A DNA stretch of 64,000 bases from Opitutaceae bacterium. GTDB lineage: Bacteria > Verrucomicrobiota > Verrucomicrobiia > Opitutales > Opitutaceae. The stretch lies in NCBI GenBank assembly GCA_030648295.1, contig JAUSID010000095.1, positions 1 through 64,000 of the forward strand, in the 5' to 3' direction. Positions 1,820 through 18,867 of the stretch are shown here, in pieces. How positions within the stretch are numbered: position 1 is the stretch's first letter; every line of letters begins with the position of its first letter. A program made the translations under genes and the position numbers. Below the pieces are notes generated by a model that was not told where the DNA came from, made no database searches, and worked only from the letters and a program-made list of their open reading frames with translations.

Positions 1820-3205
1820 ATGCCACGTCCGCCGCTCGATCCCAACCGGGTTGCCCTGCGACTTCAGACGGAGGGCGTTACATCGGCGCGTTCGATCGCC
1901 ACGGCGCTGCGCATCAGTCCGGCGACATTGAATCGGTGTATTGGATTGCTGGGACCGGCGGTCGAACGGATTGGGGCGGCACGGTCGACCCGTTACGCGT
2001 TGCGCCGGACGGTGAGGAATCTAGGCGACCGGTGGCCGATTTATCGGATCGGAAATGCTGGCCGGCCGCGGGTGTGGGGAGAGTTGCGAGCGCTGCACCG
2101 CGGCTTTCGCTTTGTGCCGGCCGAGCCAGCGCCCGCGTGGATGCAACGCGAGTACATGGATGGCCTGTTTTCCGGGCTGCCGTTCTTTTTGCAGGACATG
2201 CGGCCGCAGGGATACATGGGTCGGGCGATCGCCCGTGACGTGGCGGCGCGCCTTATGGTGCCGCCGGATGTCCGCCAATGGAACGACGACGACGTACTTT
2301 CGTACCTGTTGATCGAGGGCTTCGACTTGCCGGGAGATTTCGTCGTGGGCGATCGCGCGCTGGAGCGAGCGGTCCGGCTGGCAGACGATCCGGCGGCCGG
2401 TGCGGTCGCGGAGGCGAACCGATCGCGCTCGTATCTGGAGCAGGCCGCGGCGGCACAGCGCGGCGAAGTGGTGGGATCTTCGGCCGGCGGTGAGCAGCCG
2501 AAATTCCTGACCACCGTGCAGCGGGCAGGCGGCGGGGTTGCGTCGGTCATGGTCAAGTTTTCCGCGGCCGAGGCGTCATTGGTGTCGCAGCGTTGGGCCG
2601 ATCTGTTGAGGTGCGAGCATCTGGCGGCTGAAACAATGCGGGCGCGGGGAATTACGTGCGCAGCGACACAGGTGATCGAAGCGGGCGGCCGTTGTTTCCT
2701 GGAGATCGAGCGTTTCGACCGGGTGGCCGTGGCAGGTCGCCGCGGCGTGATCAGCTTGGGGACAATCGAAGACGCGCTCCTGGAGAGGAGCTCGGCGGAC
2801 TGGGCTGCGGGGGCCGGGATGCTGGAAGAGGGCGAATGGATCACGAGCGCCGAGGCTCGCGCTCTCCGTTGGATTTGGTGTTTCGGCGACCTGATTGCGA
2901 ACACCGACATGCACCGCGCGAATGCGAGCTTCTGGTTTGGCGATGAGTTGCCGTACCGGCTGACGCCATTTTACGACATGCTGCCGATGCTGTACGCGCC
3001 GGGGAGTCAGGGCGAACTCGGTGCGCGTAATTTCGCGCCCAAGCCGCCGCTGGCGCATGTGGCCGAGGTGTGGAGCGACGCCGCGGCGGGTGCCGTCCAG
3101 TTCTGGCAGCGCGTCGCCGACGATGAGTGGGTGTCGGAGCCGTTCCGGCTGATCGCCGCGACGAACCGTGAGATTGTGCGCAGGCTGGCGGAGCGATTGG
3201 GGTGA
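1820..3205 (+). CDS. Solo HipA-family kinase with fused N-terminal HTH (YjjJ/HipH type)
   Basis: 461 residues. Residues about 10-60 form a winged/HTH-like DNA-binding segment (SARSIATALRISPATLNRCI), and the rest is a HipA-type serine/threonine kinase. Visible kinase elements are the Ser/Gly-rich loop SSAGGEQPKF (220-229), a lysine in VMVKFS (about 246), the catalytic segment GDLIANTDMHRAN (N361, D363) and the metal-binding YDMLP (D386). HipA toxins phosphorylate aminoacyl-tRNA synthetases such as GltX and cause growth arrest. The layout, a DNA-binding domain in the same polypeptide and no separate hipB, resembles E. coli YjjJ (HipH). There is no antitoxin ORF on either side, and no convincing Shine-Dalgarno before the ATG. 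It lies beside the tRNA-His cassette. The family is clear; toxicity is inferred. Confidence 0.85.
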   Translation: MPRPPLDPNRVALRLQTEGVTSARSIATALRISPATLNRCIGLLGPAVERIGAARSTRYALRRTVRNLGDRWPIYRIGNAGRPRVWGELRALHRGFRFVPAEPAPAWMQREYMDGLFSGLPFFLQDMRPQGYMGRAIARDVAARLMVPPDVRQWNDDDVLSYLLIEGFDLPGDFVVGDRALERAVRLADDPAAGAVAEANRSRSYLEQAAAAQRGEVVGSSAGGEQPKFLTTVQRAGGGVASVMVKFSAAEASLVSQRWADLLRCEHLAAETMRARGITCAATQVIEAGGRCFLEIERFDRVAVAGRRGVISLGTIEDALLERSSADWAAGAGMLEEGEWITSAEARALRWIWCFGDLIANTDMHRANASFWFGDELPYRLTPFYDMLPMLYAPGSQGELGARNFAPKPPLAHVAEVWSDAAAGAVQFWQRVADDEWVSEPFRLIAATNREIVRRLAERLG

Positions 3206-3278: not shown

Positions 3279-3333
3279 TCGAACCCGCGACCCCCAGATC
3301 CATTCTGCTGGCCAGCAGAATGCTCTAACCAAC
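3279..3333 (-). pseudogene. tRNA-His-derived fragment (D-arm to T-loop) with palindrome in place of the anticodon region
   Basis: Read on the minus strand, this matches the intact tRNA-His at 3608-3685 from the D-arm (GTTGGTTAGAGCA) through the variable region and into the T-loop (GGGTTCGA). Where the real tRNA has the eight bases CCAGATTG, the fragment has the 18-bp palindrome TTCTGCTGGCCAGCAGAA. Both acceptor strands are absent. The stop codon of the GIY-YIG gene (TAG, 3325-3327) lies inside the D-arm part. Bases 3293-3333 are repeated exactly at 3767-3807. Confidence 0.8.
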
Positions 3334-3597
3334 CTGCGCCAATTGCCGAAGGCATTTGGCGACGATTTCACATTTTACGCGATGGCCCGACCCGGATTTG
3401 TAGTAGCGTTCCCGCCTCATCGCATCGGCTCGGGTGGGGTATGACTCCCAATGAGCGACATAGGGTTCGCGAATCTTCTCTCTTGTCGTGCGCGTCGTTC
3501 CTTCGCCGTGCATCCGATAGCGTCGAATGAGATTATCCGTGTGCCCGACATACGACCGGCCCGTGCGCAGGCAAACCAGCACGTAGACGAAATACAT
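3325..3597 (-). CDS. Small GIY-YIG nuclease family protein embedded in the tRNA-His locus
   Basis: 90 residues that make up a stand-alone GIY-YIG domain: VYVL (4-7) and SYVGHT (15-20) are the two signature strands, R25 in NLIRRYRMH is the expected catalytic arginine, and a Glu in MRRERYY follows near residue 64. The family includes homing endonucleases and many short stand-alone nucleases of unknown role. The ATG lies only 10 nt beyond the encoded CCA of tRNA-His on the same strand, so both probably come from one transcript and tRNA 3' processing would leave an almost leaderless mRNA. The last codons and the stop run into the tRNA-derived fragment at 3279-3333. The fold call is strong; a mobile or homing role is inferred from position. 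Confidence 0.8.
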   Translation of the reverse strand: MYFVYVLVCLRTGRSYVGHTDNLIRRYRMHGEGTTRTTREKIREPYVAHWESYPTRADAMRRERYYKSGSGHRVKCEIVAKCLRQLAQVG

Positions 3598-3607
3598 GAG
3601 CTAAAAT

Positions 3608-3685
3608 TGGGGCGGCCAACGGGACTCGAACCCGCGACCCCCAGATCCACAATCTGGTGCTCTAACCAACTGAGCTATGACCGCC
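3608..3685 (-). tRNA. tRNA-His (GTG), with encoded G-1 and CCA
   Basis: On the minus strand the gene starts G-1 then GCGGTCA, has a GCTC D-stem, anticodon stem-loop CCAGATTGTGGATCTGG with anticodon GTG, T-arm CGGGTTCGAGTCCCG and an acceptor 3' strand TGGCCGC, then C73 and CCA. All seven acceptor pairs form (one T-G). The extra G-1 opposite C73 is the identity element of bacterial tRNA-His. The intact gene lies between two tRNA-derived fragments. Confidence 0.97.
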
Positions 3686-3698
3686 GTAAGGGTTGGGC

Positions 3699-3727
3699 AA
3701 ATTCGTCGCCGGTTTCATGGCTGTCAA
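3699..3727 (-). promoter_or_regulatory. Probable promoter of tRNA-His
   Basis: On the minus strand TTGACA (3727-3722) is followed after 17 bp by GAATTT (3704-3699), about 13 bp before the tRNA 5' end. The same pair with the same 17-bp spacing is conserved in the diverged duplicate at 3837-3865, which supports function. Confidence 0.6.
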
Positions 3728-3765
3728 ACCCTTCTTCATTGCTCAAGCGCGGCTCCGTTTTCAGG

Positions 3766-3822
3766 ACCCAGATCCATTCTGCTGGCCAGCAGAATGCTCT
3801 AACCAACTGAGCTATGATCGCC
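3766..3822 (-). pseudogene. 5' half of tRNA-His with the anticodon region replaced by the palindrome
   Basis: On the minus strand the sequence begins GGCGATCATAGCTCAG (one change from the intact tRNA) and continues through the D-arm to GAGCA. It then carries the palindrome TTCTGCTGGCCAGCAGAA instead of CCAGATTG, followed by TGGATCTGGG, after which similarity ends. No T-arm or 3' acceptor strand is present. It keeps its own TTGACA-17-GAATTT promoter at 3837-3865, so a short tRNA-like hairpin RNA could be made. Confidence 0.8.
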
Positions 3823-3836
3823 GTATAGGGTCGGGG

Positions 3837-3865
3837 AAATTCGCGTCCGTGATCTGCGGTGTCAA
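3837..3865 (-). promoter_or_regulatory. Duplicate tRNA-His-type promoter
   Basis: On the minus strand TTGACA (3865-3860), a 17-bp spacer and GAATTT (3842-3837) mirror the promoter of the intact tRNA gene. The bases between promoter and tRNA 5' end are also related, so this is a diverged duplication of promoter plus 5' half. Confidence 0.5.
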
Positions 3866-18849: not shown

Positions 18850-18867
18850 TTCTGCTGGCCAGCAGAA
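18850..18867. repeat. Third copy of the palindrome TTCTGCTGGCCAGCAGAA
   Basis: Identical to the 18-bp palindrome at 3303-3320 and 3777-3794; identity continues for three more bases (TGC) on one side. Here it is not inside tRNA-like sequence, so the palindrome is a separate unit. Confidence 0.85.

Follow-up and report, generated by a model that had tools for sequence, protein, structure and literature searches.

A dispersed 18-bp palindrome associated with tRNA-linked GIY-YIG nuclease genes in Opitutaceae and in a Kazan genome

Rickettsia palindromic elements are palindromic repeats inserted in frame in genes. The cyanobacterial SDRs, 21-27 nt long and confined to one coherent group, are said to have been described by Elhai et al. 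in 2008 as very short hairpin repeats that are nested in other repeats and show compensatory changes. We know of no enzyme for the very short mobile palindromes described to date. SDR5 has a precise insertion site (PMC4390886, available part of the text), and for the dispersed short palindromes of the REP/REPIN type the RAYT transposase has been proposed as the mover (PMC3116915, likewise the available part). According to the accessible portion of PMC2800124, repetitive hairpin-forming elements have invaded sponge mitochondrial genomes several times. SegB of phages T4 and T6 is a free-standing GIY-YIG homing endonuclease encoded among tRNA genes; the T6 enzyme makes its breaks inside such genes and thereby amplifies tRNA/segB (PMC13096335). 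The available parts of PMC13096335 and PMC2988022 describe tandem tRNA/segB repeats and microhomology that the tRNA, at its 5' end, shares with the 3' end of segB.

Anatomy of a tRNA-His locus and its empty sites

We analysed a stretch of 64,000 nucleotides from an Opitutaceae bacterium (assembly GCA_030648295.1, contig JAUSID010000095.1, positions 1 to 64,000), referred to here as the window. Two perfect 41-bp repeats at 3293-3333 and 3767-3807, with a spacing of 474 bp, bracket a tRNA-His gene and a GIY-YIG nuclease gene, and each repeat is a piece of tRNA-His in which eight bases (nt 27-34; CCAGATTG in the window) are swapped for the palindrome TTCTGCTGGCCAGCAGAA. On the minus strand, on which all features of the locus are read, a promoter-like pair and the tRNA-His 5' half (to nt 26) lead into the palindrome and ten bases of the anticodon 3' side, followed by a spacer that contains a second promoter-like pair, the intact tRNA-His, the GIY-YIG gene, the D-arm, the palindrome again, and tRNA nt 35 to the T-loop (Table 1). 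The TAG stop codon of the nuclease gene lies within the displaced D-arm (GGTTAGAGC) of the second broken copy. This anatomy had been proposed in a sequence-only reading of the same DNA and was found as described, including the perfect repeats with the genes they enclose, the exchange of eight anticodon-stem bases for an 18-bp palindrome in both copies, and the division into an upstream fragment with promoter and 5' half and a downstream one from D-arm to T-loop; the promoter was read by eye. The locus is real and unusual.

Table 1. Coordinates of the features of the locus and of palindrome copies elsewhere (window positions unless a locus is named)
Feature	Position	Strand	Basis
-35-like TTGACA of the broken upstream tRNA-His	3860-3865	-	read by eye
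-10-like GAATTT of the broken upstream tRNA-His	3837-3842	-	read by eye
Same promoter-like pair of the intact tRNA-His	3722-3727, 3699-3704	-	read by eye
Whole upstream broken piece	3767-3822	-	tRNA 5' half + palindrome + nt 35-44
Broken tRNA-His copy 1, 5' half (nt -1 to 26)	3795-3822	-	tRNA match 3795-3821, query 1-27, 96%
Palindrome TTCTGCTGGCCAGCAGAA copy 1, in place of tRNA nt 27-34	3777-3794	.	
Broken copy 1, tRNA-His nt 35-44 (TGGATCTGGG); tRNA identity stops after	3767-3776	-	
Intact tRNA-His (GTG)	3608-3684	-	ARAGORN
GIY-YIG nuclease gene, 90 aa, catalytic motifs retained	3325-3597	-	ORF + PF01541 match
Whole downstream broken piece, D-arm to T-loop	3279-3333	-	
Broken tRNA-His copy 2, D-arm portion GTTGGTTAGAGCA	3321-3333	-	
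Palindrome copy 2, in place of tRNA nt 27-34	3303-3320	.	
Broken copy 2, tRNA-His nt 35 to T-loop	3279-3302	-	24 bp, 100%
Solo palindrome copy inside an unrelated repeat	18850-18867	.	
Kazan palindrome places besides L153	L337 1837-2331; L338 2061-2078, 3783-3800; L339 1990-2007		

The 474-bp span holds the tRNA-His and the GIY-YIG gene; the other ORFs there are overlapping frames, and no recombinase gene was recognised. The sequence common to the two repeats runs from the D-arm to the anticodon arm and is not the tRNA 3' end, which sets the locus apart from a tRNA-integrating island. Within the window, the surroundings of the solo palindrome included, we found no related GIY-YIG gene other than that of the locus. 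A gene with a HipA_C domain (1820-3205) adjoins the locus.

One tRNA-His was found in the source genome, that of the window, which is the only close full-length match; ARAGORN called no other GTG anticodon in stretches spanning all 71 tRNA places of this 96.6% complete assembly, two weak places giving no call at all. The sequence-only reading had made addiction to the element depend on the lack of a second tRNA-His, and neither the full-length matches nor the ARAGORN calls revealed one. Since the window's copy is the only one found, a deletion from repeat to repeat would remove the sole tRNA-His. Among 27 genomes of the genus, 22 had a listed full-length tRNA-His, and 17 of these had no related nuclease at E<=1e-12, so that the empty sites on which a mobile element would depend do exist in relatives. 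A nuclease is present in four of the 22 (the source genome G000, G162, G164 and G081), and G157 has only a decayed remnant. G162 carries both states: a resident tRNA-His with a CAAGA/TCTTG stem on one contig and, on another, a different intact tRNA-His (CCAGA/TCTGG) and the nuclease, after which come the palindrome and the 3' portion of the resident gene. Between the resident and filled alleles, the flank downstream is 96.8% identical over 156 bp, and the two alleles may come from two strains binned together. Present and absent alleles at one site, which characterise homing, are thus found both in the genus and in G162.

The palindrome as a dispersed nano-repeat

The source genome (9.12 Mb, 294 contigs) contains 49 exact copies of the palindrome and 74 at <=2 mismatches, compared to 0 for the palindrome read backwards, which shows that its abundance is not due to chance. 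The contexts of these copies are widely different, and the palindrome is a dispersed nano-repeat, neither tRNA sequence nor specific to tRNA-His. This nature had escaped the sequence-only reading, which suggested that the locus may be a minimal mobile element; that interpretation stands in part, as empty sites exist and the sole tRNA-His lies inside, but the palindrome is not a private boundary of the element, since 49 exact copies exist and, in the loci examined, only those at tRNA loci are near a related GIY-YIG gene. No such gene was found within 600 bp of the dispersed copies away from tRNA genes (Opitutaceae loci examined).

The general form of the palindrome is TTCTGC-n6-GCAGAA. Cores altered on both sides while the arms are constant (TGGCCA, CGTACG, TGTACA) indicate that the hairpin is maintained via paired changes, as in the SDRs, and one-sided core variants such as TGGACA are also present. 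Exact copies occur in 18 of 150 family genomes, ranging from 1 to 49 per genome. None was found in the six further members of the source genome's genus that the sample includes; G162, a member outside the sample, has a single copy, located at its tRNA-His. In GTDB contigs at least 93 stretches with the palindrome were recovered, of which, going by record titles, at least 88 come from Verrucomicrobia (mainly Opitutia, with one from Victivallales) and at least 5, among the matches listed, from outside. Viral contigs gave 0 matches for the window's form and one for the TGTACA form, with no tRNA gene, which we took as chance. The possibility that the palindrome represents two joined ends of a larger transposon was rejected because whole sites far outnumber half-sites (386 vs 37, counting both strands and overlapping loci). 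A shared transposase near the dispersed copies was likewise rejected: none was recognised among the 25 largest protein clusters, which were mostly frames of repeats, GIY-YIG at tRNA-His, or unrecognised neighbours. No tagged doublet of the REP/REPIN type was seen, the flanks being common only in CR before and YG after the palindrome.

A similar place without the palindrome was found for 47 of 128 contexts, a few of the matches being weak or trivial. Where the palindrome-free version is known, the palindrome stands for 5-17 bp, often a hairpin loop together with part of one arm; this loss is clearest in the hairpins GGCACGGGCGTCTCGCCCGTG, CCGGAGCAAGCTCCGG, GGCGCTGACGGAGCAGCGCC and GGACGACACGGAGGTCGTCC. 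The native tip of the source genome's main repeat family, AAACCGCTCTGCGGTTT, is swapped for the palindrome exactly between CA and TG, and by exact flanks 21 copies have the palindrome or a one-base variant compared to 4 with the native tip, diverged copies bearing native-type tips. One repeat carries either the native tip AAACCGCnnnGCGGTTT or the palindrome, which is therefore both nested and exchangeable. In 38 of 40 contexts independent by flank similarity a purine precedes and a pyrimidine follows the palindrome (151 of 157 rows used; L114, L129, L138, L153, L171 and L172 dropped). One of the six rows left out, L153 from the Kazan genome, later proved informative. That the flanks always extend the hairpin was rejected, pairing beyond position 2 being equal to that of shuffled sequence (108 vs 111 ± 8).

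The palindrome is also found in coding sequence. In sucD (succinate-CoA ligase alpha, NCBIfam) of the relative Ga0077533 (L190) it lies in frame, with 18 bp gained and 6 bp lost, leaving the product a net four residues longer than in six relatives; further in-frame palindromes, including those in CobW and HlyD family genes, were seen by ORF only. A different kind of junction appeared when L035 (2850-3020) was compared with L017 (2984-3160): at the palindrome, half of a gene gives way to half of the main dispersed repeat, whereas a homologue runs on past that point, reflecting either a palindrome-mediated rearrangement or a misassembly.

Nuclease loci in relatives, at other tRNAs and in a Kazan genome

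The 90-aa protein of the window matches PF01541 (E 1e-10) and retains in alignment the GIY, YIG, Arg and Glu positions, which we take to be catalytic. Its scores with Seg-family models are below the curated cut-offs (PF19835 SegE, 20.2 bits, cut-off 25; TIGR01453, 19.1 bits, cut-off 56), PHROG homing models match at E 0.03 only, and the nearest solved chains by sequence are the UPF0213 proteins 1ywl and 1zg2. With presence defined by protein search at E<=1e-12, a related nuclease occurs in 16 of 252 family genomes and 7 of 49 genera. Three of four genera form one group each in the nuclease tree and the fourth (g37) is not grouped, support being weak (2 of 14 inner branches). Lateral transfer of the nuclease between genera was unsupported, and because the tree largely follows genus we do not claim movement across genera; old residence with many losses would fit the distribution as well as lateral homing.

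All 16 related nuclease loci contain an intact tRNA-His, and 13 have in addition a broken tRNA-His, with the palindrome or a variant of it at the break, the copies of G068 being decayed. The three others are at contig ends (G081, G124) or have a decayed gene and no palindrome (G183). Identical eight bases (nt 27-34) are missing from the anticodon-broken tRNA-His across several lineages; the displaced right-hand copies of G125 and G060 have lost about six more bases, and the displaced copy in each has a second palindrome in its T-loop. The kept 3' arm is mostly that of the local tRNA-His (TGGATCTGG in the source genome, TGATTCTAG in G064, TGATTCTTG in G037 and G217, TGAATCTTG in G027), a match with each genome's own gene that speaks for separate events. 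It departs by single changes from the intact tRNA-His of the same genome in G128 and G145, and equals the resident's arm in G162. G164, G165 and G160 have TTCTGCCGTACGGCAGAA in place of TTCTGCTGGCCAGCAGAA, altered on both sides. The order of the parts varies from broken copy, nuclease and intact tRNA in G064 to broken copy, intact tRNA and nuclease in G037, and G214 and G027 have only the downstream broken copy in the stretch examined.

Several further arrangements were seen around these tRNA genes. At L086 (G170), L215 (G214) and L078 (G164) a second GIY-YIG gene start, decayed or shortened, is repeated after the broken tRNA, as if successive waves had reached one tRNA. Perfect 25-bp copies of the tRNA-His 3' end (nt 53-77), apart from the listed tRNA-His genes, occur in G154, G152, G155, G167 and G195 and look like attachment sites of integrated elements. 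The source genome also has tRNA genes packed into two dense arrays, with 14 called in each and a similar order (L363, G000:C17:200-2200; L366, G000:C181:25390-27860), which sit outside the ordinary scattered tRNA genes; neither contains tRNA-His.

Many of the GIY-YIG genes recovered in relatives with the window protein as query adjoin tRNA or tmRNA genes. We compared 19 such loci with their own tRNA, and read nine tRNA/GIY-YIG loci by eye, several of which showed no hairpin. A hairpin was found in the anticodon region of the broken copy at tRNA-Met (L091, both sides), tRNA-Asn (L086) and tRNA-Pro (L093 and L100, overlapping stretches of one locus), and inspection by eye added a hairpin-broken copy at tRNA-fMet (L096). 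These hairpins differ from the window's palindrome, and by eye the Asn and fMet copies are missing eight bases. The stem of the Asn hairpin, CCCGAC/GTCGGG, is dispersed in its own genome (36 vs 2 for the control), while the Met hairpin is not dispersed in G054 (5 vs 3). The other compared loci, and Ser, Ala, Phe and Asp loci read by eye, showed no hairpin in a broken tRNA; loci without a hairpin-broken tRNA have tRNA 3'-end copies, other direct repeats, or nothing. A second locus type (L089, L090, L095, L097, L098, L101, L102) has the GIY-YIG gene downstream of the tRNA or tmRNA, with direct repeats at L102, tRNA 3'-end copies at L089 and L095, and no hairpin-broken tRNA seen.

A MAG of candidate division Kazan, a CPR lineage, carries tRNA-Pro twice at one locus (L153, 7292-7650), as a fragment (nt 1-10) with the exact palindrome and as an intact gene, together with a GIY-YIG gene. 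Its nuclease (PF01541, E 4e-16) is 38% identical to that of the window (E 2e-14), and the stop codon lies in the D-arm of the intact tRNA-Pro. The 1.1-Mb genome has seven TTCTGC-n6-GCAGAA sites compared to 0 for the control. One is the tip of a GTCATTGCGAG..CGAAGCAATC repeat adjoining a second GIY-YIG gene (PF01541, E 5e-14), two are in the 23S rRNA gene, one of these bordering a group I intron, and another is 100 bp after 16S. Judged from this one Kazan genome, the cross-phylum case among the matches listed, the nano-palindrome spans at least two phyla and is associated with tRNA-linked GIY-YIG nucleases.

Candidate mechanism, rival explanations and known systems

The exact palindrome is present in 7 of 11 nuclease-bearing genomes and in 11 of 139 others (150 genomes; Fisher p = 2.7e-5, shared ancestry uncorrected). 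Eleven of the 18 palindrome-bearing genomes have no GIY-YIG gene at E<=1e-12, including G136 (14 copies), G142 (16) and G003 (6), which indicates that copies are maintained or spread where no nuclease of the window's type is detectable. We consider the chances about even that the locus is a SegB-like homing tRNA/GIY-YIG element: breaks in its targets would be repaired with a mobile hairpin, and the cell would come to depend on the element's tRNA. Comparison of sequences documents the empty and filled sites, the loss of the same eight nucleotides, the exchange of tips, the broken copies at 13 of the 16 loci and the dispersal. According to this proposal, a free-standing GIY-YIG nuclease would travel with a working tRNA-His, and the resident tRNA-His would be displaced and split in its anticodon arm. 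Unprotected tRNA copies may be cut by the nuclease or its homing cycle in the anticodon or T arm, as may other DNA that forms hairpins; a few bases would be lost at such a cut, which would then be filled by the 18-bp TTCTGC-n6-GCAGAA palindrome, itself dispersed elsewhere as a nano-repeat in place of hairpin loops and of other short stretches. If a circular or ectopic donor with the palindrome served for gap repair, the presence of the palindrome in both flanking copies would be explained. Filling would inactivate the tRNA copy and end its use as a target, and the host would stay dependent because its only working tRNA-His sits within the element. More tentatively, and short of even chances, TTCTGC-n6-GCAGAA palindromes and small tRNA-linked GIY-YIG nucleases may form one two-part mobile system of Verrucomicrobiota and CPR, in which hairpin DNA, be it in tRNA arms, repeats, rRNA or intron helices, would be cut by the nuclease and would receive the palindrome at that point.

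The main rival holds that the palindrome is a passive nano-repeat, like the cyanobacterial SDRs, that lands in hairpins through an unrelated process, for example template switching or a step via RNA, and that it is seen at tRNA/GIY-YIG loci only because the spare tRNA copies there tolerate hits. Many copies do lie in genomes without a related GIY-YIG gene, sites include sucD, not established as a hairpin, as well as old repeat families with other native tips, and the GIY-YIG at tRNA loci is the only DNA enzyme recognised in the 25 largest clusters (repeat frames aside, others unrecognised). We nevertheless find a purely passive repeat rather doubtful, given the association between nuclease and exact palindrome (kinship uncorrected), the same eight nucleotides struck in several lineages, other hairpins in a like position at other tRNA/GIY-YIG loci, and the same trio in the Kazan genome.

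A minimal mobile unit bounded by the 41-bp direct repeats, which would integrate and excise by their recombination and be addictive via the sole tRNA-His, agrees with the perfect repeats, the single tRNA-His and the empty sites in the genus. It is unlikely, because the differing order and number of parts (G064 and G037; only the downstream copy in the examined stretches of G214 and G027) means that a fixed repeat-bounded unit is not general, and 474 bp is too short for a recombinase gene beside the nuclease. Alternatively, the hairpin could be a regulatory RNA feature that blocks processing of the broken tRNA or controls nuclease translation, as proposed for T4 segB, a gene listed among those with such RNA structures in the available part of PMC2988022; in G064, G128, G145 and Kazan the nuclease start is preceded by the palindrome at a distance of about 30-55 bp. 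However, a palindrome follows the stop codon in the window, G162, G027 and G214, and no related nuclease accompanies the dispersed copies, which makes this explanation very unlikely. We give hardly any credence to an assembly artefact: many palindromes of the source genome are within about 120 bp of a contig end, but independent assemblies have the palindrome as well, among them G064, assembled as one contig of 5.93 Mb, and G003, on a contig of 5.96 Mb.

The dispersed nano-palindrome associated with tRNA-linked GIY-YIG nucleases is a bigger finding than the tRNA-His element itself. Should the two-part system be true, it would rank with the smallest known mobile DNAs, present as solo copies or as a tRNA-replacing addictive element, and to our knowledge the first mobile DNA of that size with a candidate enzyme. 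The recurrent physical link to a 90-aa nuclease gene offers a testable candidate enzyme for mobile palindromes. The locus also shows how a nuclease element could enforce dependence: it destroys the one copy of an essential tRNA gene and brings in the only copy that works. Because a replacement by the hairpin stays visible as a scar, genomes could be mapped for earlier attacks, on tRNA genes and even in sucD.

Our literature search, covering titles and abstract openings with subscription journals mostly outside it, returned neither hairpin-broken tRNAs by GIY-YIG genes nor such a palindrome. Compared to the hairpins of sponge mitochondria, as far as the available text describes them, the window's palindrome is likewise a repetitive hairpin, but those are organellar. 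It shares in-frame insertion with Rickettsia palindromic elements and is far shorter. Like REP/REPIN sequences it is short and dispersed and has a proposed partner enzyme; unlike them it has no REP tag or doublet, its candidate partner is a GIY-YIG nuclease, and insertions are also found in coding sequence and tRNA. As in SDRs, it nests in other repeats and its hairpin is kept by compensatory changes, whereas it is a perfect palindrome of 18 bp, outside their 21-27 nt, replaces target bases, occurs beside GIY-YIG/tRNA loci, and is found in two phyla (Opitutaceae and Kazan) and not in one coherent group. The locus resembles T4/T6 SegB in its small GIY-YIG gene adjoining a tRNA, with the stop codon in tRNA sequence and tandem copies, and differs from SegB, as presented in the available parts of the sources, in being chromosomal, with a single tRNA-His, hairpin-broken tRNA copies and a dispersed palindrome.
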